Assembly: GCA_025656675.1 (NCBI GenBank)
Contig: JAHXHN010000001.1
Location: 525,501-589,500 of the forward strand
Source of the DNA: Candidatus Thiodiazotropha sp. (ex Codakia rugifera)
GTDB taxonomy: Bacteria; Pseudomonadota; Gammaproteobacteria; Chromatiales; Chromatiaceae
DNA: 64,000 nt
Reading direction: 5' to 3'
Both the position numbers and the translations under genes were made by a program. This document shows, one piece after another, positions 682 through 13,119 of this stretch (positions are counted from its first letter, which is position 1; the number at the start of each line of letters is the position of its first letter). The notes under the pieces were generated by a model. That model saw nothing but the letters and a program-made list of their open reading frames with translations. It was not told the DNA's origin and ran no database searches.

Positions 682-1362
682 ATGCGACCATCCAATCCCA
701 TTGCCTCCCTTCTGGGAAGCTCCCCATTTAAACCCCTGCAGGTACATATGGGGATAGTCCAAGAGTGCATCGCCGAGGTTCCCGGTCTGTTTGAGGCGCT
801 TATCGCCGGGAATCAGGAACAGCTGAAGGCTGCCAAAGAGAAAATCTTCTCCCTTGAACACGATGCGGACCAAATCGAAAACGACATCCGGGCACGCCTC
901 CCGAAAAGTCTGTTTATGCCTGTCGACCGTCGAGATCTGCTGGAGCTGCTGGAGATGCAGGACAGCATCGCCGATACAGCTCAGGATATTGCAGGCCTGA
1001 TGATGGAGCGGGACATGTCTGTCCCTAAAGATATGAATGAGCCCCTGCAGGCCTTTGTTCAGCGTTGTGTAGACACCTGCAACCAAGCTGCCTCTATTAT
1101 CGAAGAACTGGACGAACTGATCGAAATGGGATTCAAGGGGAATCAGGCGAATAGAGTCGAAGAGATGGTTGAGGTACTCGGAAAGGTTGAGGATGAAACC
1201 GATGACATGGGCATGGCACTGGCTCGTAGCCTATTCGCTCAGGAAGAGTCCATGAATCCTGTCTCTGTGATGTTCTGGTATCAGATGATCCAATGGATCG
1301 GCGATCTTGCTGATTATGCAGAGAAGGTGGGTGACCGCATGCGTCTGCTGATTGCACGCTAA
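682..1362 (+). CDS. DUF47 / PhoU-like phosphate transport regulator (TIGR00153 family)
   Basis: 226 residues, all-helical. It matches the TIGR00153/DUF47 family, PhoU-related cytoplasmic proteins that usually precede a PiT transporter gene and are thought to modulate phosphate uptake. PhoU-type metal-binding acidic helices are visible: EHDADQIENDI at about residues 58-68 and DLADYAEKVGDRM near the C-terminus. The ATG at 682 has AGAGGAAG about 6 bases upstream. The PiT gene follows on the same strand after a 122-base gap, so the two probably form one operon. The upstream region carries a Pho-box-like array and an inverted repeat, suggesting phosphate-responsive control. Confidence 0.9.
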   Translation: MRPSNPIASLLGSSPFKPLQVHMGIVQECIAEVPGLFEALIAGNQEQLKAAKEKIFSLEHDADQIENDIRARLPKSLFMPVDRRDLLELLEMQDSIADTAQDIAGLMMERDMSVPKDMNEPLQAFVQRCVDTCNQAASIIEELDELIEMGFKGNQANRVEEMVEVLGKVEDETDDMGMALARSLFAQEESMNPVSVMFWYQMIQWIGDLADYAEKVGDRMRLLIAR

Positions 1363-1484: not shown

Positions 1485-2750
1485 GTGGAAATCATTAGTG
1501 AATGGGGTACAGTCTTTATTGCGTTGGCCATCATCTTCGGCCTCTATATGAGCTGGGGCATCGGTGCCAATGACGTGGCAAACGCCATGGGCACGTCGGT
1601 TGGCTCCGGCGCGATCACGGTTAAACAAGCGATTATTATCGCGGCTATCTTTGAATTTGCTGGCGCCTTTATCGCCGGTGGTTCGGTCACCAAAACGATT
1701 CGAAAGGGGATAATCGATCCCAGCAGCATCACCGGTAATCCGGAGCTGCTGATCTACGGTATGTTAGCGGCGCTGCTAGCCTCCGCAATCTGGTTGATGT
1801 TTGCTTCAACCCGCGGCTGGCCCGTCTCCACAACACACTCCATCGTAGGTGCCATTGTCGGCTTTGCCGTAGTCGGTATCGGTGTGGATGCCGTTAATTG
1901 GGGTAAAATCGCCAGTATCGTTGCCAGTTGGATCGTCTCTCCGTTGGTTGGCGGTGTGATTGCACTGCTGTTGATGATCAGTATTCGGAAGCTGATTCTA
2001 AACACGGACAGTCCCTTCACAAAAGCTAAAACCTGGGCTCCTTTGTATGTCTTCCTGGTGGGCTGGATCGTCTCCCTGGTTACCCTCTTCAAGGGTCTGA
2101 AGCACCTGAAGCTGGAACTCAACATGGTTGAAAGCCTGGTGGTTGCTACAGTATTCGGTATAGCCGTTGCCATCATCGGAAAGATGATGATCAATAAAGT
2201 CCAGGTCGATGATGAGGCCGACAAGGATTTCCACTATGCCAGCGTGGAGAAGGTTTTTACCCCACTGATGGTCTTTACTGCTTGCGCGATGGCCTTTGCC
2301 CATGGCTCCAATGACGTCGCCAACGGTATCGGCCCGATGGCAGCCGTTCTTTCGCTTGTCGAGAGTGGCGGCGAAGTGGGCCAGAAGGCCGGACTTCCGA
2401 TCTGGGTACTCTTTGTGGGTGGTGCAGGCATCGTTGTCGGTCTCGCTACAATGGGATACAAGGTCATGCAGACCATCGGCACAAAGATTACCGAATTGAC
2501 CCCGACCCGCGGCTACTGCGCCACCTTGGCTGCAGCTACCACAGTGGTTATTGCATCTAAAACCGGCCTACCGGTCTCCACCACCCAGATTGCAGTCGGC
2601 TGCGTCATGGGCGTGGGTCTGGCTCGCGGTGTGGGCGCCATTGATCTGCGTGTCATCGGCAATATTGTGGTTTCATGGTTGATCACGCTACCGGCAGGTG
2701 GCATCTTAGCTGCGATATTCTTCTTTATGCTGAAAGGTATTTTTAGCTGA
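1485..2750 (+). CDS. pit: PiT-family inorganic phosphate transporter
   Basis: 421-residue polytopic inner-membrane protein of the PHO4/PiT family, which moves phosphate (often as a metal-phosphate complex) with protons or sodium. The family's two duplicated signatures are visible: GANDVANAMGTSVGSGAIT near residues 28-46 and HGSNDVANGIGPMAAV near 272-287. Hydrophobic segments cover most of the rest, with a short charged loop (KVQVDDEADKDF) in the middle. The start is GTG at 1485 with GAGGAT upstream. A strong intrinsic terminator follows the stop at 2750, closing the DUF47-pit operon. Confidence 0.93.
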   Translation: MEIISEWGTVFIALAIIFGLYMSWGIGANDVANAMGTSVGSGAITVKQAIIIAAIFEFAGAFIAGGSVTKTIRKGIIDPSSITGNPELLIYGMLAALLASAIWLMFASTRGWPVSTTHSIVGAIVGFAVVGIGVDAVNWGKIASIVASWIVSPLVGGVIALLLMISIRKLILNTDSPFTKAKTWAPLYVFLVGWIVSLVTLFKGLKHLKLELNMVESLVVATVFGIAVAIIGKMMINKVQVDDEADKDFHYASVEKVFTPLMVFTACAMAFAHGSNDVANGIGPMAAVLSLVESGGEVGQKAGLPIWVLFVGGAGIVVGLATMGYKVMQTIGTKITELTPTRGYCATLAAATTVVIASKTGLPVSTTQIAVGCVMGVGLARGVGAIDLRVIGNIVVSWLITLPAGGILAAIFFFMLKGIFS

Positions 2751-2864: not shown

Positions 2865-3464
2865 ATGGACCAATTGAAAACACAACCCTTTGATGCACTG
2901 AAAAAAATCAAAGGCATAACATTTCCGGAATTCGTCTCATTCCGGCAATTGCTGATCACTGGACCCCCAGGAGCCGGCAAGAGCACAATGATACAAAATC
3001 TTGGTGGCTGGTCAGAAGAGGGTTATATCGACCTCTCTCTGAATAGATGGTGGACAGCCCAAAGCCTCTCACTACGCCCACGGGAGATTCATCTCGGCTT
3101 CCCTTTCAAAGGGAAAAAAAAAGCTTTGGCGGTGTTTGAGAAGGCCTGGATAGAGGCATCCCCGCCCCTTGAACTGGATCTTAGTCGCATTATCCTTCCA
3201 CCACCCAAGCGTTTCTTCTTCTCAGTCAATTGGAGGGAGCGATATATTTTCGAATTTGTTCTACCTCGCGCTGAATCTCTGCTTAGACAGCGGATCAAAA
3301 GAGCTGAGCTGGGTACCCACCATGTGGATGAAGCCGTCAACCTGGAGCGAATTGAACGACAGTTGTCAGTCTACAGGCAGATAGCGAGATACCTTCACCA
3401 ACAGGACATCCGTATCTATATCCGGGAAGGTACGGATGGCATCCCACTGCAGATTATCGATTAA
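2865..3464 (+). CDS. P-loop NTPase, kinase-like, paired with PPP phosphatase
   Basis: 199 residues. A Walker A motif GPPGAGKS lies at residues 33-40, preceded by a hydrophobic strand (RQLLIT), as in small P-loop kinases and related NTPases. The remainder is basic and helical, with a lid-like stretch LLRQRIKRAEL. I see no nucleotide-specificity motif that fixes the substrate. The stop is 12 bases before the phosphatase gene, so the two are surely co-transcribed. A P-loop kinase-like protein coupled to a PPP phosphatase recalls the two-enzyme layout of bacterial Pnkp, but the ligase and Hen1 partners are absent and this parallel is inference. A dyad operator lies just upstream. Confidence 0.6.
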   Translation: MDQLKTQPFDALKKIKGITFPEFVSFRQLLITGPPGAGKSTMIQNLGGWSEEGYIDLSLNRWWTAQSLSLRPREIHLGFPFKGKKKALAVFEKAWIEASPPLELDLSRIILPPPKRFFFSVNWRERYIFEFVLPRAESLLRQRIKRAELGTHHVDEAVNLERIERQLSVYRQIARYLHQQDIRIYIREGTDGIPLQIID

Positions 3465-3476
3465 GAGCGATAAAAC

Positions 3477-4937
3477 ATGAATCAAACGGGATTGAAAAGC
3501 AAAAAGAGCCTTATCAAGCTGATCAAGAGTGCATTCTCAGGTCTGTCCCAGTGCGAAGAGGTTGATCTCAAGGAGTCATACCACCTGCACGGATCAAAAG
3601 TTAAGGTACCGATTCATTGTTACCCTCTGCAGATCAATCTCCCACCTGATGGCAAGGCACTTCATCTCTATCCCGAAAGCCTGACCAATGCAATAGATAA
3701 TGACTGCACATCACGTAGTTTTATCGTATTTGATCCTGAACGCTACTATTCGGAGGTCAGTGGTTTTTTCCGGGTTGATGATGGTGAAAAACTGGTTATT
3801 GGCAGTCAGGACAAAATGCGTCAGAAGGATTTCCTGAAGATGCAGGCCAATTTCTCTGATTTTGTTTTTTCCATAAGCAATGAGGATGGCAATCTAATCT
3901 TTCGCGACTACTCACCTAATTCCGGAAGCTGCATGTCGCCGCTTCTGAAAGAGAAGAAGATGATGAAAGTTGCCACGTGGCGACGCAAAAAACTAAAACG
4001 CCTGGCCAAGCTTTACGGTGGAGAGATCAAAACCCTCTCGGATAAAAAGGCCCTGGCCCTGCTCCAGGATGTTAACAAAATCCTGCAAGATGAAGCCTTT
4101 CGCGAAAAGGACAAGGATGACAATCCAGGTGGGGTAATCAAACTGCCGAGTGAGATGAAACCATTCATCATCGGCGACCTCCACGGCAAGCTGGACAACC
4201 TGCTGGTTGTATTGAGCCAGAATGGTTTTCTTGAAGAATTGGAACAGGGTACAGCCTGCCTGATCATCCTCGGAGATGCCGTGCACAGTGAAGAGGAGGA
4301 CAGATACCACGAGATGGACAGTTCCATTTTGATCATGGATGTCATCTTGAAACTTAAACAACTCTTCCCACAACAGGTCTTCTATCTGCGCGGAAATCAT
4401 GATGGCTTTTCCGATGAGATCGCAAAAGGTGGTGTAGCACAGGGGCTGTTGTGGAAAAAAGCATTGAATAAGTCTCGAGGAAAGGAGTATCGCAAAGAGA
4501 TGGATCGGTTTTATGATTTACTTCCATATGTTGCCTATTCAGAAAAGATGATCTGCTGTCATGCGGCCCCCCCCACCTCAAAGATCAAGCTGGAGATGCT
4601 GGTCAATATTAAAAGAAATGGCGGGTTGATAAAGGAGCTAAACCAAAACCGTCTACAAAAAGCGAGTCGGCCTGGCGGTTACACGAAGGGTGATGTGAAA
4701 CGGTTTCGCAAAGTATTTGATCTACCTGCGGACACACCCATAATCGTAGGCCATACGCCGATTACCATGGATGATACGCTATGGATTAATGTCGCTGAAA
4801 TCGAAGACCACTATGTAGTCTATGGCGGAAATAATGACAGGATCGGAGTAATGACCCTGATTGGCAATAAAATGTACCCGCTGAAATACCCGGTAGAGCC
4901 ATTATTGGATTATGTCAATTCACTCTCTGAGCAATAG
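3477..4937 (+). CDS. PPP-family metallophosphatase with FHA-like N-terminal region
   Basis: 486 residues. The C-terminal half has the PPP metallophosphoesterase set in order: GDLHG (about 233), GDAVH (264; normally GDxVDRG), GNHDG (305), HAAP (about 361) and GHTP (about 424). These supply the two-metal site of Ser/Thr and related phosphatases. The N-terminal 150 residues hold a strand-rich stretch (LVIGSQD ... GNLIFRDYSPNSGSCM) resembling an FHA phosphopeptide-binding fold, which is tentative. It is co-transcribed with the P-loop gene. Its place between phosphate transporters suggests a signalling or nucleotide/phosphate-metabolism role, but the substrate cannot be read from the sequence. Confidence 0.75.
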   Translation: MNQTGLKSKKSLIKLIKSAFSGLSQCEEVDLKESYHLHGSKVKVPIHCYPLQINLPPDGKALHLYPESLTNAIDNDCTSRSFIVFDPERYYSEVSGFFRVDDGEKLVIGSQDKMRQKDFLKMQANFSDFVFSISNEDGNLIFRDYSPNSGSCMSPLLKEKKMMKVATWRRKKLKRLAKLYGGEIKTLSDKKALALLQDVNKILQDEAFREKDKDDNPGGVIKLPSEMKPFIIGDLHGKLDNLLVVLSQNGFLEELEQGTACLIILGDAVHSEEEDRYHEMDSSILIMDVILKLKQLFPQQVFYLRGNHDGFSDEIAKGGVAQGLLWKKALNKSRGKEYRKEMDRFYDLLPYVAYSEKMICCHAAPPTSKIKLEMLVNIKRNGGLIKELNQNRLQKASRPGGYTKGDVKRFRKVFDLPADTPIIVGHTPITMDDTLWINVAEIEDHYVVYGGNNDRIGVMTLIGNKMYPLKYPVEPLLDYVNSLSEQ

Positions 4938-4956: not shown

Positions 4957-5235
4957 TCAGTAACTGCTCCCCGGCTTGTCACTTCCTTGCAGAAGTACCA
5001 GTTTATCTCTGCTTTTTCTCCCTTTTTTTAACTGGATCTCTACGATTGTCAGCTCCGCTTTTAATCTTTTACGCTTGCAACCGCGCTTCTCCTTCTCCAA
5101 GCGTCGTTTCAAATGCTGCTTTTTTCCTCTGAGCTGCAGCAGCAGCTCATCAATTTTATCAAGTTTTGTCTGGCTTTGCGCTTTACCTTTATTGAGATAT
5201 TTTCTTAATTTGTGTAGCAACTTCTCTAATTTCAT
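4957..5235 (-). CDS. Small basic helical protein, copy A (Na/Pi symporter-associated)
   Basis: 92 residues, extremely Lys/Arg-rich and almost wholly helical, with heptad-like leucines (KLEKLLHKLRKYL, LLLQLRGKKQHL) and a KRKRL core. It aligns without gaps over about 76 residues with the protein at 12865-13119 (about 29 identities by my hand count). Both genes lie directly downstream of a Na+/phosphate symporter gene on the same strand; here the gap is about 145 bases and holds a hairpin and a repeat. No known domain is recognised. A coiled-coil protein binding nucleic acid, polyphosphate or the transporter's PhoU-like tail is possible, but that is inference. Confidence 0.72.
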   Translation of the reverse strand: MKLEKLLHKLRKYLNKGKAQSQTKLDKIDELLLQLRGKKQHLKRRLEKEKRGCKRKRLKAELTIVEIQLKKGRKSRDKLVLLQGSDKPGSSY

Positions 5236-5309
5236 AGACTACAACTTATGCTGTCAGCAGCTTCCACAAATAGCATTTCCAGACTCTGCTAGCGATCGAT
5301 CAGATAGCC

Positions 5310-5337
5310 TAGGGCCTGCTAACACTAATCCAATCGG
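5310..5337. repeat. Dispersed repeat, copy 1
   Basis: A 28-base block starting TAGGGCCTGCTAACA matches 56824-56851 at 26 of 28 positions. This copy is a half-site: the inverted partner seen at 56857-56871 is missing, and an unrelated hairpin (5337-5370) follows instead. It lies in the gap between the Na+/Pi symporter and small basic protein genes. It is probably a genome-wide non-coding repeat. Confidence 0.6.
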
Positions 5338-5370
5338 CCATGCTGGGACTATTTTTTCGTCCAGCATGGC
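5337..5370 (-). terminator. Strong hairpin downstream of Na/Pi symporter 1
   Basis: GCCATGCTGGGAC (5337-5349) pairs with GTCCAGCATGGC (5359-5370) across a 9-base loop, with one bulge. It starts 11 bases beyond the symporter stop. No T run follows on the minus strand, so it may stabilise the upstream message or attenuate read-through into the small basic protein gene instead of terminating fully. Confidence 0.5.
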
Positions 5371-5380
5371 AACTCAAGCA

Positions 5381-7195
5381 TTATTCTTCATCGATCTCAT
5401 CTGCCGGAATCACACTCTTCGCCATTCGCTTCGCAAAATAGTAGATTCGCTTCTGCTTTTCGATGATATCCACCTCGGTCGTATAGGCTGCAATACGATT
5501 GGGCTCTTCAGCGACCAGTCGCGATGCCTGATGCACCGCAGCCGAATCAGCCATCTTATTGATTTCATTTTTCATGGCGATAACCGATTGTGCTACCTCT
5601 GAGTTGACTTGAGATACGGCTTGAACGGCACCATCCACGGACTTTCTTACAACCTTGTGAAATCCATTCAGAACATTTTTGGTGGGCTCGCTGATTGAAA
5701 AACCGTGATCAATACGCTCATGACCGAGTGCAACCATATTTGTTTCGATTGTGTCACCGATATTTTCCAGGTCACCGACCGCCTCCATCAGTCCCAGAAA
5801 CTCTGCTGTCTGACCATCGGTCATCGACTGTTTACTAATCTTGCCTAAATAGTCAATGATCTGTTCGTAGAGGATATCCACCTCATCATCGAGTTGGGCG
5901 ACACCATCCAGTGATTTCCGATCACCTGTCAGGATCGCAGGCATGATCTGACTCAACATATCCTGCACCTTTTCCCCCATATGCAACACTTCGAGTCGCA
6001 CCCTGTCCAATGCCAGAGAAGGTGTGGAGAGCAGCTCGTCATCAAGGTATTTGGCACTGACCGCCAATCCCTCTTCCTCCAAGAGGCGATCCGGAATCAA
6101 CCACTCCACCACACGGGCCAGCTGGGCAGTGAACCAGATAAAAAGAAAGGTGTTCGCTATATTGAAGATAGTATGCGCATTGGCGATCTGGCGCGGTGTC
6201 TCTGCACCCAATCGCTCTATCCCCGAGAGTTCAGGATGGCTGGGTGAAAACGATGTCACAAACTCAGCCAACTGAGGAATGAACATCAGCCAAACCAGTA
6301 CGCCTGCTATATTGAATATGACATGCACCATCGCCGCACGCACCGCTTCTCGCGGTTTGCCTATCGACGCAAGCATTGCTGTAACACAGGTACCGACATT
6401 GGCGCCAAATGCCAGTGCAATGCCTGCAGGAAGTGTAATAAAACCCTGACTGGCCATCACGATGACGATGCCCGTGGTGGCTGATGATGACTGTATAAGA
6501 CCTGTAAACCCGGCTGCCACCATAATACCAATCAATGGATTTTCCATACTGATCATCAAGTCCAGAAATGGCTGGTAGGTACGCAGTGGTTTCATCGCAT
6601 CACTCATGACGCTCATACCAAAAAAGACCAGCCCCAACCCCATTAACATGGCGCCATAGTGCTTGATCCGTTCCTGTTTGGACGCAAACAGCATGCTGAA
6701 ACCGACACCGATCATCAGCAGCGCCGCCTTGGTCACTTTGAAGGCAACGATCTGAGCAGTGATGGTGGTGCCGATATTGGCCCCCATAATGACGCCGATT
6801 GACTGGGAGAGAGACATCAGACCGGCGGTAATAAACCCAACCACCAGTACCGTAGTCACCGATGATGATTGAATGACAGCTGTTACGAAGGCACCCGTGG
6901 CAGCTCCCATGAAACGGTTACTGGTCAGCTTCGCCAGAATACCCTTCATGCGCTCACCTGCGACCGCTTTTAGAGCGTCTGCCATCTGCTCCATACCAAA
7001 CAGAAAAAGCGCAAGGCCACCGAACAGCTTCATGCCCATTACGCCCCATTCAATTCCCTTCTCAGTCCCACCATCGGCGAAAACGGGAAATACCAGGAGT
7101 GTTGCAATCAAACCCAGGATTAAAATCAGAATTTGTTTAGGATTGAAATCAGCATTTTTTATAAGTTTGTCGAGGAACATGGTATCATTTCTCAT
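5381..7195 (-). CDS. Na+/phosphate symporter with PhoU-like C-terminal domain (copy 1)
   Basis: About 604 residues from ATG 7195 (599 from ATG 7180); the longer frame up to 7258 lies inside the stress-protein gene and is unlikely. It belongs to the NptA/PF02690 family: a duplicated membrane domain with the sodium/phosphate motifs VIQSSSVTTVL and LIQSSSATTGI and many hydrophobic helices, then a cytoplasmic helical tail (about residues 370-604) like PhoU, with acidic pairs (DEVDILYEQI, GDLENIGDTI). It imports phosphate with sodium, the tail probably sensing or gating. The start overlaps the Usp stop by about 11 bases, so the two are translationally coupled. It is the last large gene of a CNNM-CNNM-Usp-symporter unit. 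Confidence 0.92.
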   Translation of the reverse strand: MRNDTMFLDKLIKNADFNPKQILILILGLIATLLVFPVFADGGTEKGIEWGVMGMKLFGGLALFLFGMEQMADALKAVAGERMKGILAKLTSNRFMGAATGAFVTAVIQSSSVTTVLVVGFITAGLMSLSQSIGVIMGANIGTTITAQIVAFKVTKAALLMIGVGFSMLFASKQERIKHYGAMLMGLGLVFFGMSVMSDAMKPLRTYQPFLDLMISMENPLIGIMVAAGFTGLIQSSSATTGIVIVMASQGFITLPAGIALAFGANVGTCVTAMLASIGKPREAVRAAMVHVIFNIAGVLVWLMFIPQLAEFVTSFSPSHPELSGIERLGAETPRQIANAHTIFNIANTFLFIWFTAQLARVVEWLIPDRLLEEEGLAVSAKYLDDELLSTPSLALDRVRLEVLHMGEKVQDMLSQIMPAILTGDRKSLDGVAQLDDEVDILYEQIIDYLGKISKQSMTDGQTAEFLGLMEAVGDLENIGDTIETNMVALGHERIDHGFSISEPTKNVLNGFHKVVRKSVDGAVQAVSQVNSEVAQSVIAMKNEINKMADSAAVHQASRLVAEEPNRIAAYTTEVDIIEKQKRIYYFAKRMAKSVIPADEIDEE

Positions 7196-7667
7196 TTTGG
7201 GATTTGGCCTTGACGACCATGACTGGCACAGGACAGATCTGTACCACTCGCTCGGCAACCGAACCCAACATTAAATGTTTGAGTCCTGTCTCTCCTTTAC
7301 TTCCCATTATAACCATGGTGGCATTGATTTTATTCGCCACCTGCAGGATCCGTGTCGCGGGCAGACCGATAACCAGCAATCGCTCTGCCTTCTTTAAAAC
7401 TTTTTTCCCTGAATGCCTTTTGCGAAAGGCATGTACAAATTCATCCAGCATCACCTTGGCAGCATCCTGCATCCTGCCAAATTTCTTCTTTTTCACCATG
7501 GCTGAATAGTAACCCGGCATTTCTCCGGGATCATGTACAACATGTAAAATCACTATAGGTACATTGAGACATTCGGCCAGATCACATGCCTTAAGCAAAG
7601 CGGCCTCTGATGCCGCTGAAAAATCGATCGGCACCAAGATCGGTTTTTTAGCTGTTTTATCAGCCAT
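7185..7667 (-). CDS. Universal stress protein (UspA family), ATP-binding type
   Basis: 160 residues from ATG 7667, chosen over GTG 7673 because AGGAG is 7 bases upstream. Single Usp domain: the N-terminal strand ILVPIDFSAASEAAL and the C-terminal ATP-binding pattern G-2x-G-9x-GS (GSKGETGLKHLMLGS) mark the nucleotide-binding Usp class. Cytoplasmic. It lies between two CNNM genes and a Na+/Pi symporter on the same strand and overlaps the symporter start. The close coupling suggests it tunes transport or responds to ATP/phosphate status; this is inference from context. Confidence 0.92.
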   Translation of the reverse strand: MADKTAKKPILVPIDFSAASEAALLKACDLAECLNVPIVILHVVHDPGEMPGYYSAMVKKKKFGRMQDAAKVMLDEFVHAFRKRHSGKKVLKKAERLLVIGLPATRILQVANKINATMVIMGSKGETGLKHLMLGSVAERVVQICPVPVMVVKAKSQNEK

Positions 7668-7713
7668 AACCACACTCCTCTACCAGATTATTAATATTCA
7701 AGAGTAGAAGAAA

Positions 7714-8979
7714 TCACCCCAATAGTCGCTCTATCCTCACTTTTACAACGGAACGTTCATCAGCTTCTATTACCGTTAAACGGTGACCCTGCTCCTCTAT
7801 TGCATCACCTTCCTTGGGTATATGCCGCAAACGACTGACAATCAGGCCGCCTACGGTCAACGCCTCCTCCACCGGAAATTCCACATGTATAATGTCATTT
7901 ATTTCAGAGATGGGTGTTCGTCCACTCGCCAAGTGCGTGTTTTCATCCTCATGCTCAATGTAGGAACGACGCTTTGGCTGGTACTCATCGAAATCGTAGC
8001 CCACATCGATCTCACCCACCACCTCTTCGAACACATCCTCCATGGTCAGAATGCCTATTGCTGAACCAAATTCATCCACCACCACAGCTAAATGATCCTT
8101 TCTAGCCTGCAACATCGGCAGGGCACGATCGATAGTCTGTCGCGGCGACAGATAGAGCACCGGGCTGACATAATCAGATATTGATTGATCTTCAAGGTCC
8201 GGCTGCATCAGATCCCAGGTATCCAAGGTCAGAATCCCTTTTACGTTGGTGATGTTGCCTCGGTAGACCGGTAATCGATTGTATCCATGTTTTATCACCA
8301 GGCGAACCGCCTCTTTCATATTCCGCACTTCATTGAAGCCCACCACATCCGGCAGTGGAATCATCGCTTCTCCAACGGTGGTATCGGCAAAGCGGATAAT
8401 CCGCCGGATTCGCTTACGATCGATGGTTTGTGGATCAGAGGTCGATTCCGACACGTCCAGCAGTACCCGCAGCTCCTCACGGGTAATAAACATATTTTGC
8501 GGTACCGTACCGCCACCCACAATCCGGGTCGCCAATCTCGCGACACGGCTGAAGATAAATATAACTGGATAAAAAACATAAGAGAAGAAACGCAGGATAT
8601 AGATTAATCGGCTGACCAGGCTGTCTGCTTCCTGCTGGAATACACTCTTCGGTACTACCTCTCCTAATATCAGCAGGATGGGGGTCAGGATGATCACCGA
8701 GATCAAGTCACCCGTTGCGCCAAACAGGTCGATGCAGACCAGTGCACCGAGGGTGGAGATGGTGACTGTAGCGATATTGGTCCCGACCAGGGTTGTACCC
8801 AGAATAACATCCGGTGTTTTAAACAATTTCAGAACCAGATTAGCACCCCGATTGCCAAGCTTTGCCTGATGTCGCAATTTAAGCTTGTCGGAATTGACCA
8901 TAGCGATCTCTGATCCGGAGAAGAAAGCCTTCAGCAGAATAAAAACAATGATAATCAGTAGCTCAACGCTCCAGTCCAT
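7714..8979 (-). CDS. CNNM/CorC-type CBS-domain membrane protein (copy 2)
   Basis: 421 residues. An N-terminal CNNM (DUF21) membrane domain of about 180 residues (LLKAFFSGSEIAMVNSDK, LILGEVVPKSVFQ) is followed by a tandem CBS pair (about 200-330; DEFGSAIGILTMEDVFEEV) and a C-terminal CorC_HlyC domain. The family is implicated in Mg2+/divalent cation efflux or its control. The ATG at 8979 overlaps the preceding CNNM gene by 17 bases and has a strong AGGAGG just upstream, so the two paralogues are co-translated and may form a heteromer. The Usp gene follows 46 bases later. Confidence 0.9.
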   Translation of the reverse strand: MDWSVELLIIIVFILLKAFFSGSEIAMVNSDKLKLRHQAKLGNRGANLVLKLFKTPDVILGTTLVGTNIATVTISTLGALVCIDLFGATGDLISVIILTPILLILGEVVPKSVFQQEADSLVSRLIYILRFFSYVFYPVIFIFSRVARLATRIVGGGTVPQNMFITREELRVLLDVSESTSDPQTIDRKRIRRIIRFADTTVGEAMIPLPDVVGFNEVRNMKEAVRLVIKHGYNRLPVYRGNITNVKGILTLDTWDLMQPDLEDQSISDYVSPVLYLSPRQTIDRALPMLQARKDHLAVVVDEFGSAIGILTMEDVFEEVVGEIDVGYDFDEYQPKRRSYIEHEDENTHLASGRTPISEINDIIHVEFPVEEALTVGGLIVSRLRHIPKEGDAIEEQGHRLTVIEADERSVVKVRIERLLG

Positions 8980-10435
8980 TCTCCGCCTCCTTTGATTGCG
9001 TCTCGTCTACAGGTCTCTTTTCCACTTCAGCCGTCTGTTTCGCTTTCGCATCAATAATCGCTTCCTCTCCCGTTATTTCAGTCTGTTCGTCGAGTTCCTC
9101 TTCGGTCAGTATAGGCTCCTCGTCACTGGCCAGGCTTTTTCGCACCTGCACCCTACTGATACGTAAACCCTTCACTTCCTTGACGATAAACTCATAACCC
9201 TCGTTTCTGATGACATCCCCTTCCTGAGGCAAACGGTCAAAAAGCCGAAACACCACCCCTCCAATGGTTGCCATCACCGGATCTTCAATATCGAAATTGG
9301 TGAGATTATAGAAATCAGTCAAACGCATATCACCTGGCACGATATAGCTGTTCTCGTCCTCTTCCTGGTAATACTCCAAACCCGCCATCTTCCCGCTGAT
9401 TTCCCCGAAGATGAAGGTCAATACATCCTTCATGGTAACGATACCGAGCACCTCGCCATACTCTCCCAACACGATTGCAATGCGCGTGTTATGGGCCTGG
9501 AAATAGTCAAACATCTCGTCCACCTTTTTAGTCGGCGGCACAAAATGGGCAGGTTTGATGATCATCTCCAAAGTCACCTGCTCCAGGTCACCTCCCCCCC
9601 TGACAAGACGCAGAATATCTTCGGAATGGATAAAACCAATGACATTGTCCCAATGTCCTTGATAGACAGGAATCCTAGGGTGACGATAGGATCGGAATGT
9701 CTCGATTAGTTCCGGCACGGGCAGATCCGCATCCAGAAAGAGAATGCGTGGCCCGGGGGTCATGATGCGCGATATATCGGTCTCGGAGGCCTCAAGCACA
9801 TTGTCGATCAATACCCGCTCAGTAGCCTCAATTACGCCGCTCTCTTCACCTTCCTCAAGGAGTGTGCGTAATTCATCGGCATGCAGGATATTCTCCCGAC
9901 TGACCGCCTCGCCCACTACCAGTGTGGTAATCCGGTCAGCCACGACCCTGACCGCTTCCCTCAGTGGGGTGATAAAAACAATCCATCTCGGTAGTATTCT
10001 CGCCGTCACCCGGGTGGCGAACTTCACCGGAAAGCTCACAGCAATCGTCTTTGGTGTCACCTCACCGATCAATAGCAACAACGGCACCATGATAAGGATA
10101 TTGAACCAACCCACATCCGCCTCGCCGAACACCAACAACAGGATTGCCGCCATATTGGCGGCGGAAGCGATATTCACCAGTTCATTGCCGCACAGGATCG
10201 AAATGATCAGGCGTCGGGGCTCATCCAGCATGGCGTGGATATTCTCTGAGTGCTTATCCCTACTGTGTCTTAGTTTCTGTAGATCGATCCGGCTGAGAGA
10301 GAAGAGTGCTGTCTCTGAGCCAGAGAAGACGGCGGATGAAGTAAGCAGAAACACCTGTAAGGCACCACGCAACAGCAATTCCCAGTTTACGTCTCCAAGC
10401 CCGAGGGAATCGAAAAGTGTTCTCAGCTCTTCCAT
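8963..10435 (-). CDS. CNNM/CorC-type CBS-domain membrane protein (copy 1)
   Basis: 490 residues from ATG 10435 (MEELRTLFD), preferred over the upstream ATG at 10474, which has no visible ribosome site. Same architecture as its neighbour: CNNM membrane domain (SSAVFSGSETALFSLSR; LLLIGEVTPKTIAVSFP), CBS pair (GEYGEVLGIVTMKDVLTFI), CorC_HlyC domain, then an acidic, low-complexity tail of about 60 residues (TEEELDEQTEITGEEA) absent in the second copy. It is first gene of the minus-strand unit that ends with the Na+/phosphate symporter. The Pho-box-like array at 10833-10861 lies about 400 bases upstream in forward orientation. Confidence 0.88.
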   Translation of the reverse strand: MEELRTLFDSLGLGDVNWELLLRGALQVFLLTSSAVFSGSETALFSLSRIDLQKLRHSRDKHSENIHAMLDEPRRLIISILCGNELVNIASAANMAAILLLVFGEADVGWFNILIMVPLLLLIGEVTPKTIAVSFPVKFATRVTARILPRWIVFITPLREAVRVVADRITTLVVGEAVSRENILHADELRTLLEEGEESGVIEATERVLIDNVLEASETDISRIMTPGPRILFLDADLPVPELIETFRSYRHPRIPVYQGHWDNVIGFIHSEDILRLVRGGGDLEQVTLEMIIKPAHFVPPTKKVDEMFDYFQAHNTRIAIVLGEYGEVLGIVTMKDVLTFIFGEISGKMAGLEYYQEEDENSYIVPGDMRLTDFYNLTNFDIEDPVMATIGGVVFRLFDRLPQEGDVIRNEGYEFIVKEVKGLRISRVQVRKSLASDEEPILTEEELDEQTEITGEEAIIDAKAKQTAEVEKRPVDETQSKEAENGLER

Positions 10436-10832
10436 CAAATATTCCGAATTGGTTTCTAGCGTAGCGCACAGCACTAGCAGCCACAGTGAAGGGGCTTACT
10501 GCTGAATTGATGAAGCTGCTCTGGTAGCCTGAAGTGCATTCCCCTGCATCATAGGCTAAAGACAGGGCTTGCAGTTAGGGAATTCACACCCAAACCCACC
10601 TGAAACAGAGATATCAACAAAAACCCATTTTCTTTTTTTAAATGACAGGGTTATAGAGGCCTCGCCGGAACCGAATTGGTTTGCATGACAGGGGCCTAAA
10701 GAACCCTTCCCGAAACACCCACCCTGGTATAAGACCCGTCCCGTTTAGGCGCTACAGTATACCCTACAATCGGTTCAGGTTGTTTGGTCCTACAGACTTA
10801 TTGGCCAAGAATACAGCGCATAGCGTATAATT

Positions 10833-10861
10833 GTTACAGCTTTATGACAGTTTGCTGACGG
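10833..10861 (-). promoter_or_regulatory. Pho-box-like PhoB binding array
   Basis: Three 7-mers GTTACAG (10833-10839), ATGACAG (10844-10850) and CTGACGG (10855-10861) with 4-base spacers CTTT and TTTG, again an exact 11-base repeat. Reverse complement: CCGTCAG, CTGTCAT, CTGTAAC. It shares the core GACAGTTTG(A/C)TGAC with the array at 353-381. The forward orientation points to the CNNM-Usp-symporter unit; on the other side TGTAAT lies 12 bases away toward the symporter at 11012. Confidence 0.55.
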
Positions 10862-10905
10862 CAGTCAACCCACTGTAATAAAAAACGACGAAAAATCACC
10901 TTCGC

Positions 10906-10958
10906 CCACCCTCAGGGAGTATGAAGTATTACTTCATTCATTATGAAGTAAAGGGTGG
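10906..10958. promoter_or_regulatory. Nested palindromes, possible switching hairpin in leader
   Basis: ATGAAGTA (10921-10928) and TACTTCAT (10930-10937) form a 17-base palindrome, and the same TACTTCAT can instead pair with a second ATGAAGTA (10943-10950). The latter hairpin is extended by outer arms CCACCCT (10906-10912) and AGGGTGG (10952-10958). Two mutually exclusive foldings 54 bases upstream of the symporter start codon suggest an operator or an RNA switch. Confidence 0.4.
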
Positions 10959-11011
10959 CTATTTTGCCCAATAATATTGTGGCTTCAATAAGCGGCTAGA
11001 GACGACCCAAA

Positions 11012-12844
11012 ATGATACGAAAAATACTACTTCCCAGCATGCTGATCATTCTCACCTATGGCTTTTGGATCAGCCCCGACTTTAAGGAGATTGCTGCAGG
11101 TGTTGCCATCTTTCTGTTCGGTATGCTCGCCCTTGAGGAGGGATTCAAGGCCTTCACAGGCGGTACATTGGAGCGCATCCTGCGCAATAGCACCAATCGA
11201 TACTGGAAGAGTTTGAGTTTTGGCATAGTCAGCACCACCGTGATGCAGTCCAGCTCTCTGGTTTCGGTCATCACCATTTCCTTTCTCAGCGCCGGACTGA
11301 TCTCCCTGGCTGCCGGTATCGGGATCATCTTTGGCGCAAACATCGGTACAACAACCGGTGCCTGGCTAATCGCCGGGCTTGGATTGAAGGTAAAAATCTC
11401 AGCCTATGCCATGCCAATGCTGGTGTTTGGCATCATTCTGGTATTCCAGAAATCCAACACATATAAAGGGTTTGGTTACATCCTCGCCGGCCTTGGCTTT
11501 CTATTTTTAGGCATTCACCACATGAAGGAGGGCTTTGAGGCATTTAAGTCCACCATCGATCTGACAGAATTTGCGGTTGCAGGATATCCGGGGCTGTTTC
11601 TCTTCGCCGGCATCGGCATCTTTGCCACAGTGGTGATGCAGTCAAGCCACGCCACCCTGGTATTGATTCTAACCGGTCTTGCAGCAGGCCAGGTCACTTA
11701 TGAAAACGCCCTGGCCCTGGCGATAGGGGCTAATGTGGGAACCTGTATCACAGCCATTCTCGGCTCCCTCAGCGCCAACGTGGAGGGTAAACGGCTGGCC
11801 GGTGCACATCTGATTTTCAACGTCACTACCGGCGTTATTGCGATTCTCTTTATTAAACAGTTCCTCTGGGGGGTGGAGGGTATCAGTGCCTTGGTCGGTA
11901 TTGCCGATGACGATTACACCCTGAAATTGGCTGTATTCCATACCCTGTTCAATATTACCGGCGTACTGGTTATGACGCCGTTGATCGGCAAGCTGGTCAC
12001 GACTCTGGAAAACACGCTACGGGCAAAAGAGGTTTCTGTGGTGGAGCCCAAGTACCTCTCCGAAGCAACCATGGAGTTTCCCGATACCGCGATGGAATCG
12101 GTACGAAAAGAGACCCTGCACCTCTACGACAACGCCCTGGAGATCATTGCTCACGGTGTCAGTCTGCATCGCCACGATATTTTCTCCAAAACTGACCTGG
12201 CAGCAGTGATACAGCAACCTCACAAGGTCATCGACATCGACATTGATGAAACCTACGGACGAAGCGTCAAGGTACTGTACGGCTCGATAGTTGGCTTTAT
12301 CTCAGAAGCGCAGACCCATATCACCTCCGATTATTCGGAAGACCTCTACTCATTGCGACTCGCCGGCCGCTACATTGTTGAAGCGCTGAAAGATGTGAAA
12401 CACTTGCGCAAGAACCTGGCAACCTATATGGTTTCCGATAATGAGCATATTCGCGCTGAATACAACAAGTTCAGGCTGCAAATCGGCAATATCCTGCGTG
12501 AGCTAGGGGATCTGCGGGTACAATCTGAAGATCCTGACAATATAACCATCCTCAATCTGGATGGCCTGAAAGCGGAGATCGAAGAGATCGATGTGGTAGC
12601 CAATGGCTCTCTCGACCATTTAATTCGTGAAAACCTGATTACCGAGGAGATGGCGACATCGATAATGAATGACAGTGCCTATACCTTCGACATATCCAAA
12701 AATCTGATCGATATGGCGGAGATCCTGTTTGCCGCTCGCGCGCTTGATCTCAGAGAGGCAGAACGGGATATCGCCCTGAACGAAGATGAGTTGGAAGAGA
12801 TCATCGAAGAGGTTGAGGCCGAAGAGAAGTCACGAGCAAAATAG
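11012..12844 (+). CDS. Na+/phosphate symporter with PhoU-like C-terminal domain (copy 2)
   Basis: 610 residues. The PF02690 duplicated membrane domain carries VMQSSSLVSVITISF and VMQSSHATLVLILTG in place of the usual QSSSATT, so the second motif has His instead of the third Ser. A long cytoplasmic helical tail (about residues 355-600) is PhoU-like, with the acidic helix INETYG-like DIDIDETYGRSV and a highly acidic end (EEIIEEVEAEEKSR). It imports phosphate with sodium. The ATG at 11012 has a weak GAGACG ribosome site. It is followed after 20 bases by the small basic helical protein, repeating the arrangement of the first symporter. A palindromic leader and a Pho-box-like array lie upstream. 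Confidence 0.9.
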   Translation: MIRKILLPSMLIILTYGFWISPDFKEIAAGVAIFLFGMLALEEGFKAFTGGTLERILRNSTNRYWKSLSFGIVSTTVMQSSSLVSVITISFLSAGLISLAAGIGIIFGANIGTTTGAWLIAGLGLKVKISAYAMPMLVFGIILVFQKSNTYKGFGYILAGLGFLFLGIHHMKEGFEAFKSTIDLTEFAVAGYPGLFLFAGIGIFATVVMQSSHATLVLILTGLAAGQVTYENALALAIGANVGTCITAILGSLSANVEGKRLAGAHLIFNVTTGVIAILFIKQFLWGVEGISALVGIADDDYTLKLAVFHTLFNITGVLVMTPLIGKLVTTLENTLRAKEVSVVEPKYLSEATMEFPDTAMESVRKETLHLYDNALEIIAHGVSLHRHDIFSKTDLAAVIQQPHKVIDIDIDETYGRSVKVLYGSIVGFISEAQTHITSDYSEDLYSLRLAGRYIVEALKDVKHLRKNLATYMVSDNEHIRAEYNKFRLQIGNILRELGDLRVQSEDPDNITILNLDGLKAEIEEIDVVANGSLDHLIRENLITEEMATSIMNDSAYTFDISKNLIDMAEILFAARALDLREAERDIALNEDELEEIIEEVEAEEKSRAK

Positions 12845-12864
12845 TTAACGAAGAGGTAGCTACC

Positions 12865-13119
12865 ATGCCCCCACCAGAGAAAATCGTAAAAAAACTCCTA
12901 AACCTGCTTGATGCAGGCAAGAAAAAAGATCGGGCTAAGTGCGATCGCATCTCAGACCTCTTAAAGCAATTGAAAAAGCAGGAAAGGATCGTTAAAGACA
13001 AGCTCGCCCATGAAAAAGATAGCGTTAAACGCAAGCGCCTTTCCACAGATGTGAAGATTATTCACACCCAGCGCAAGAAGGCGATAAAGCGTTTCAAAGA
13101 GTTGAAAAAGAAGTGCTAG
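12865..13119 (+). CDS. Small basic helical protein, copy B (Na/Pi symporter-associated)
   Basis: 84 residues with very high Lys/Arg content, predicted helical throughout (KIVKKLLNLLDAGKKK ... SDLLKQLKKQERIVK ... VKRKRL). Homologous to the product of 4957-5235. Conserved features in both are the GK near residue 18, a D-x-I-x-x-LLxQL segment, EK, and KRKRL. GAGGTAG precedes the ATG by 6 bases, and the gene starts 20 bases after the symporter stop, so it is co-transcribed. The symporter's C-terminus is strongly acidic while this protein is strongly basic, which would allow a direct electrostatic contact; that is inference. Confidence 0.75.
   Translation: MPPPEKIVKKLLNLLDAGKKKDRAKCDRISDLLKQLKKQERIVKDKLAHEKDSVKRKRLSTDVKIIHTQRKKAIKRFKELKKKC

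Follow-up and report, generated by a model that had tools for sequence, protein, structure and literature searches.

Small basic proteins encoded directly downstream of Na/Pi symporters in Candidatus Thiodiazotropha belong to a family usually found beside phosphate importers

Importer-specific accessories beyond the classical PhoU have been described in recent work on phosphate (Pi) uptake, including transporter-paired regulators of Staphylococcus aureus and a small protein, SCO1846, whose gene neighbours pitA and which is annotated as a membrane protein about a third of the size of PhoU (PMC13170248). How bacteria sense phosphate sufficiency through import is an open question. Here two small basic proteins, SP1 and SP2, are described from a window of 64,000 nucleotides (the whole stretch of DNA analysed) of Candidatus Thiodiazotropha sp. 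(ex Codakia rugifera), each encoded next to a Na/Pi symporter, NP1 and NP2, respectively. The two proteins belong to one family, hereafter referred to as SP, for which a module of symporter and small protein is well supported by the genomic neighbourhood.

SP1 (92 residues, isoelectric point (pI) 10.5) is encoded at positions 4957-5235 on the minus strand and SP2 (84 residues, pI 10.4) at positions 12865-13119 on the plus strand, both being identified from the list of open reading frames (ORFs), by BLASTP and by profile, and SP2 being in addition modelled with AlphaFold; these coordinates agree with the initial annotation of this DNA. NP1 (5381-7258, minus strand; PF02690, E 5e-64) carries a C-terminal PhoU domain (PF01895, E 8e-18), while NP2 (11012-12844, plus strand; PF02690, E 1e-48) carries an apparently PhoU-related tail of remote kinship and an acidic C-terminal motif (AERDIALNEDELEEIIEEV). 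Each symporter contains two Na_Pi_cotrans stretches (214.8 and 165 bits, respectively, against the curated cut-off of 29.1), and no further PF02690 gene was found in the genome of the window. SP1 starts 145 bases after the end of NP1 and SP2 20 bases after the end of NP2, each symporter being followed on its own strand, as originally noted, by a small gene as its immediate neighbour.

In BLASTP with composition adjustment, SP1 and SP2 aligned without gaps over 69 residues with 27 identities and 43 positives (E 6e-12), and in a fixed ungapped register 28 identities were counted within the first 76 columns, close to the about 29 over about 76 residues counted by hand beforehand. The pair has a Smith-Waterman score of 129; the highest scores in two sets of 20,000 shuffles each were 86 with plain shuffling and 84 when the seven-residue register was preserved. 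A profile made from rows outside the genus of the window gave 71.6 bits for SP2 and 59.0 bits for SP1, the top score among 8,000 shuffled copies being 17.6 bits, and a search of the window's own genome with SP2 retrieved SP1 as the next match (E 3e-6). Because of the shuffle controls and the outside-genus profile, the similarity is not compositional, and SP1 and SP2 are true homologues by these sequence comparisons, in agreement with the initial annotation. The AlphaFold model of SP2, computed with seven close sequences as input (mean predicted local distance difference test (pLDDT) score 84.3), places helices at residues 4-16, 23-49 and 53-82, with one short helix leading into a long hairpin.

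Of 147 genomes from the same order, 57 gave matches at E 0.01 with SP2 as the query and 48 with SP1. PF02690 was present in 106 of these 147 genomes, in 56 of the 57 positive with the SP2 query as against 50 of the 90 negative (Fisher p 8e-10; lists compared by eye); in the lone SP2-positive genome without PF02690 (G102), the contig breaks off at a distance of 287 bases from the SP copy. A 38-row profile matched 26 of 369 genomes of the class, or 22 after dropping those with matches in long frames only (G256, G339, G372 and G484), and a 47-row profile matched 26 of 398 genomes of the phylum, 23 of which belong to other classes; in a further genome of the phylum scan, G712, the match lies solely within a frame of 1,403 residues. 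SP2 was also found in five named contigs, four of Candidatus Thiodiazotropha and one of a 'gamma proteobacterium symbiont of Ctena orbiculata', which we take to be from gill symbionts of lucinid clams. The 90 SP ORFs of the order (length 55-110, E <= 1e-4) are 58-107 residues long (median 82.5), with pI 9.5-11.7 and a median net charge of +18.5. A hydrophobic helical core and a QRxKG motif are conserved in the family, with Q69 in 42, R70 in 37 and K72 in 45 of 47 rows, and position 73 being G in 39 and A in 8. The ratio of nonsynonymous to synonymous substitution rates (dN/dS) was 0.05-0.10 in five of six SP2 pairs (three of the five synonymously saturated, the sixth not computable) and 0.17-0.33 in three SP1 pairs, two further pairs not being computable; the SP genes are thus under purifying selection.

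SP1 and SP2 gave nothing significant against Pfam and NCBIfam (best E 0.043 and 0.16), including no match to PF01895 (PhoU) or, in Pfam scans, to PF01865 (PitR/DUF47), and among 38 SP members searched against Pfam no two matched the same family (best E 8e-4). The SP profile compared with the profile of NP1 tails and PhoU gave E 0.58. Against PDB sequences the best match of the family was a designed protein (E 0.067), and the Foldseek search of PDB with the SP2 model gave a best E of 0.59 and none at 0.001. SP2 had no match among plasmid records, and no description of such a small protein was recognised in a literature search that had subscription journals mostly outside its scope. SP is a family without a Pfam, NCBIfam or convincing PDB relative, with members of about 82 residues that are predicted to form a helical hairpin. 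RNA polymerase beta' was considered as a relative and rejected: six weak matches in long frames (five of about 1,400 residues and one of 421) were taken as coiled-coil noise on the basis of frame length and of a PDB match at E about 0.09. The weak scores of the profile in frames of about 1,400 residues (E about 5e-4), probably a coil of RNA polymerase beta', indicate that helical bias can score, and on this ground the likeness of SP1 and SP2 might be regarded as merely compositional and their pairing with symporters as chance; this explanation is refuted by the shuffle controls, by purifying selection and by the adjacency described next, and its probability is practically nil.

For the analysis of neighbours, loci were taken around all matches of the order and around all matches of the class and phylum except six rows inside long frames, with the addition of 20 loci around symporters seemingly without a small gene and of the first 18 kb of the window. 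The fetched loci contained 157 SP ORF rows (E 1e-3), which are not independent since one genus supplies many. In 128 rows SP directly follows a Na/Pi symporter gene of the same strand; these consist of 124 scored by script (95 at NP2-type and 29 at NP1-type genes, as labelled by BLAST to the two symporters of the window, with start codons as predicted) and four reassigned (L179, L180, L181 and L183), in which SP follows the first of two tandem NP2 genes whose symporter matches had been merged by the script. Two more rows lie directly upstream of an NP1-type gene (L172 and L177), five at pst genes (L190, L191, L192 and two overlapping rows in L197) and two at contig edges (L086 and L098); SP is thus encoded beside a Pi importer across lineages, and the symporter-SP pairing spans 17 taxonomic families by their kinship labels. 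NP2-SP pairs often have overlapping starts, with a gap of -4 in seven. Four of the 128 rows adjoin only part of a symporter, at remnants in L103 and L118 and at contig ends in L139 and L174. In the two remnants the symporter has shrunk to a tail fragment next to an intact SP gene (L103 4415-5002; L118 4055-4845), the latter fragment adjoining an apparent IS30-type transposase named from sequence. In L119 and L123 the symporter frame overruns by about 200 bases into the SP gene in another frame, either as overlapping genes or through a misread stop.

The reciprocal search gave a corresponding pattern. A search with the NP2 tail matched 26 of the 369 class genomes in 33 rows, 22 of which adjoin SP by comparison of coordinates with the SP profile scan; the other 11 comprise two at contig edges (G350 and G443), four fragments (two in G180 and one each in G155 and G461) and five full-length genes. 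By genome, SP and the NP2 tail occurred together in 19, SP alone in three and the tail alone in seven (p 3e-23). Of five NP2-type symporters in the order at whose sites neither the SP2 nor the SP1 query had given a match, the profile detected SP at L160, L168, L169 and L170, leaving L171. At nine seemingly SP-less NP1-type loci (L158, L159 and L161-L167) the profile found no SP either, and no SP lies beside the NP1 genes of L055, L059 and L160. From these results on NP2 tails and NP1 loci, NP2-type symporters usually have an SP gene as partner and NP1-type symporters do so occasionally. A midpoint-rooted tree of 151 SP sequences unites the 29 NP1-linked copies in a single group with a support of 0.83 and places the two upstream copies in a second one; from these two separate groups, pairing with NP1 probably arose about twice, trees of such short sequences being weak.

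In one genome (G543), symporter and SP share a single frame of 698 residues (L187, 2272-4368), the symporter part of which matches PF02690 and residues 617-695 of which match the SP profile (E 1.5e-13); relatives of this genome keep symporter and SP as separate genes in the corresponding cluster. If real, this fusion sets SP on the side of the C-terminal tail, touching it. The claim of a functional module made at the outset is borne out by the 128 following and two preceding rows and by this shared frame. The order of genes in the related cluster of L179 is PPK2, PPK2, NP2, SP, NP2, SP, DUF47 and Pit, with PhoU, an ATP-binding cassette (ABC) ATPase and the end of a permease on the opposite strand (the last two named from sequence), and the cluster of L187 likewise contains two PPK2-like genes, DUF47 and Pit. 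The PPK2 genes adjoining NP2-SP pairs in L179 (and in L181 and L187, where they were read from sequence), the high net charge of the 90 SP ORFs and the conservation of basic positions would all suit a protein that binds polyphosphate by a lysine-rich surface and serves next to the importer as a local buffer or as a sensor of polyphosphate, with no specific docking on the importer's tail. However, PPK2 is found in the cluster of one clade only, no Pfam match to a known polyphosphate-binding domain was obtained, and transporter adjacency, the fusion and the tail motif described below suggest a protein partner; we regard polyphosphate binding as an unlikely role.

The tails of the two symporter types differ. 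A PhoU-like tail had been assigned initially; within the window this holds by Pfam for NP1 alone, no Pfam match to PhoU being obtained for the NP2 tail, nor for any of 20 NP2 tails at E 0.01. A profile of NP2 tails nevertheless aligned with that of NP1 tails and PhoU over 127 columns (probability 90%, pairwise E 1.7e-6), which suggests a remote kinship with PhoU for the main part of the NP2 tail; no relation of DUF47 to the NP2 tail was found. The net charge of the last 30 residues has a median of -6 (range -11 to 0) in SP-linked NP2 (n=90) and of -2 in SP-less NP2 (n=11, some with artefact ends). The pattern IALxxDE[LI], picked after the tails had been viewed, occurs within the last 75 residues of 69 of the 90 SP-linked NP2 tails (62 of 83 after dereplication; rate in shuffled tails 0.10) and in two of 43 NP1 tails overall; the acidic motif starts at a median of 19 residues before the end and 34 past a conserved anchor present in 84 of the 90. 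Five NP2 rows were kept outside the SP-less group, L136, L196, L119 and L123 having SP with broken or overrunning frames and L199 lying at a contig edge.

Taken together, it is rather probable that SP is a cytosolic helical-hairpin accessory subunit of Pi importers that binds their PhoU-related tail and adjusts import or the import signal. What is observed is homology, repeated adjacency to transporters, a single natural fusion in frame, purifying selection and the co-occurrence of SP with the acidic motif; that SP binds, where it docks and what it regulates are inferred. Encoded together with its own transporter, SP would bind the cytoplasmic PhoU-related domain or the surrounding tail, a docking partner proposed because it is the simplest factor common to the NP1, NP2 and Pst contexts. 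In the NP2 branch the acidic C-terminal motif would probably serve the basic hairpin as a docking peptide, and the bound SP could then adjust import, or the import signal relayed by PhoU-type domains; this regulatory proposal is made by analogy with the transporter-paired regulators of S. aureus (PMC13170248). The high basic content of SP, with the KRKR core, might instead suit a nucleic-acid-binding regulator of phosphate genes, but no such family was matched, the fusion partner is a membrane transporter, and what is conserved is a hydrophobic helical core with few invariant basic residues, all of which make that role very improbable.

Several observations weigh against the accessory-subunit reading. 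The contact with an acidic tail, suggested in the initial annotation, is plausible for NP2 from its charge, but the median of the last 30 residues is 0 both in SP-linked NP1 (n=29) and in other NP1 (n=14), so such a contact cannot explain everything. IALxxDE[LI] was found in two of 29 SP-linked and none of 14 other NP1 tails, and docking on SP-linked NP1 must differ because these tails lack the acidic motif. The same pattern, chosen as it was from the tails themselves, is present in two of six SP-less NP2 tails; a second motif pattern was found in 58 of 90 SP-linked NP2, one of six SP-less NP2 and, for NP1, two of 29 and none of 14. The structure model of NP2, made with five close sequences, had a mean pLDDT of 32.6, and no tail fold is claimed from it. 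The fusion in L187 is from one assembly. Five full-length NP2-type genes have no SP at E 1e-3 (G199, G203, G307, G339 and G435; L200-L204), and the five pst-linked SP rows lie outside the symporter context. In nine rows from the genus of the window (L060-L068), SP2 is kept between the same neighbours with NP2 missing; pairs of such orphan SP2 copies gave dN/dS of 0.05-0.15 in 12 of 13, the remaining one not being computable. In 11 further rows no transporter neighbour was recognised (L117, L128, L129, L131, L132, L138, L148, L153, L156, L157 and L195). As separate observations, an additional NP2-type symporter, paired with a separate SP, is present at another site in four of the nine NP2-missing genomes (L078, L082, L093 and L097), and a phosphonate-binding-type gene lies near the SP gene of L148.

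The existence of orphan and of pst-linked copies rules out that SP depends strictly, one to one, on a symporter. In G528, the genes are arranged in the order pstC, pstA, pstB, phoU and SP (L192, with Pfam support for the first four), and on another contig an SP end precedes a pstS-like gene (L197), which may be the gene of L192 split by a contig break; in L190 and L191 the SP gene lies directly before a pstS-like gene. The genome of the window contains a third paralogue (L157 5978-6220, contig C2 about 188,016-188,201), matched by the profile only (E 8.6e-8) and located tail to tail with genes for a CHASE/PAS sensor kinase and a sigma-54 response regulator. Two genes upstream of the SP-less NP2 of L171 lies the gene of another regulator, which shares 70% identity with this sigma-54 activator. 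The pst-linked copies and the contexts of L157 and L171 point to a role of SP in phosphate handling that is not confined to a single type of symporter. The initial view of SP as a symporter partner is too narrow, given the copies linked to pst and phoU and the nine persisting without a symporter. The L157 and L171 arrangements and the retention of SP2 in those nine genomes would also fit SP being a signalling adaptor from Pi transporters to a sensor kinase, with adjacency reflecting shared regulation and not a subunit. Linkage to a kinase is, however, seen in few copies (L157, and L129 from sequence), no kinase or activator genes lie beside SP1 or SP2 in the window, and the fusion partner is a transporter, so that an adaptor appears quite improbable, less so than a nucleic-acid-binding regulator.

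Other genes of phosphate metabolism are located in the window. A DUF47 (PhoU_div/PitR-like) protein gene (682-1362, plus strand; named by similarity to scanned relatives in L179) stands beside a Pit-type phosphate transporter gene (1485-2750, plus strand; named by similarity to relatives in L179 and L103 scanned as PF01384), followed in this phosphate gene cluster by genes for a P-loop protein of 199 residues (2865-3464, plus strand; weak P-loop matches only) and a calcineurin-like phosphoesterase of 486 residues (3477-4937, plus strand; PF00149, E 9e-10), the latter convergent with SP1. Weakly matching relatives of the P-loop protein lie some 3.8 kb upstream of the SP genes in L085-L092, and in L103 a relative of the phosphoesterase adjoins a Pit gene and an SP gene. 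A universal stress protein gene (7185-7673, minus strand; PF00582, E 6e-30) is located upstream of NP1.

As to regulation, a PHO-box-like array of three heptamers lies at 353-381 in the intergenic region before DUF47-Pit, in the orientation opposite to DUF47, and a possible, weak one at 10833-10861 on the minus strand, between NP2 and the divergent operon ending in NP1-SP1. Their scores are 18 and 17, respectively, the best random score being 17, once in 60 sequences; three arrays scoring at least 15 were found in the window, not far from a random mean of 1.95, and single PHO-box matches (16 found, 12.1 expected) were not above chance. Within about 420 bases upstream, reverse-strand arrays were detected for 14 of 119 NP2-labelled rows as against 22 of 2,845 control stretches, 10 of the 14 coming from two genera and some NP2-labelled rows being low-scoring cross-matches; none was detected upstream of 24 NP1 genes. 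The arrays face away from NP2, and the whole is regarded as a hint only.

A conserved and occasionally fused small partner offers a concrete handle on phosphate sensing, consisting of one gene and one short acidic motif. If true, the accessory-subunit reading adds a subunit to a large transporter family with many groups of unknown function, in marine clam symbionts and their relatives. On a more tentative level, to which we give slightly less than even chances, the basic hairpin may be a further kind of accessory beside PhoU, PitR and the PhoU domain of NptA, one that clips onto the acidic motif at the C-terminus of NptA-like symporters, tuning import or Pi sensing, working with PhoU and Pst in other lineages, distributed over several classes of one phylum and overlooked for its tiny size.

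Among known small partners, CydX of cytochrome bd is a single membrane helix. Like SP, it is encoded by a short and easily overlooked gene that immediately follows the gene of its large membrane partner; it has 37 residues (PMC4325964), in contrast to the about 82 of SP, which is soluble by prediction. SCO1846 resembles SP in being small and in having drawn attention through a Pi transporter gene next to its own, and differs, by its annotation, in being a membrane protein that goes with Pit (PMC13170248), whereas SP is predicted to be soluble and goes with Na/Pi symporters; because SCO1846 is encoded beside pitA, small transporter-paired accessories are not without precedent. PhoU-type accessories share with SP a role in phosphate homeostasis and the occurrence of one per importer type, either beside the importer or as its C-terminal domain. 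PhoU-type domains are, however, far larger helical bundles, to whose profile SP has no detectable relation, and SP occurs together with PhoU-related tails instead of replacing them.

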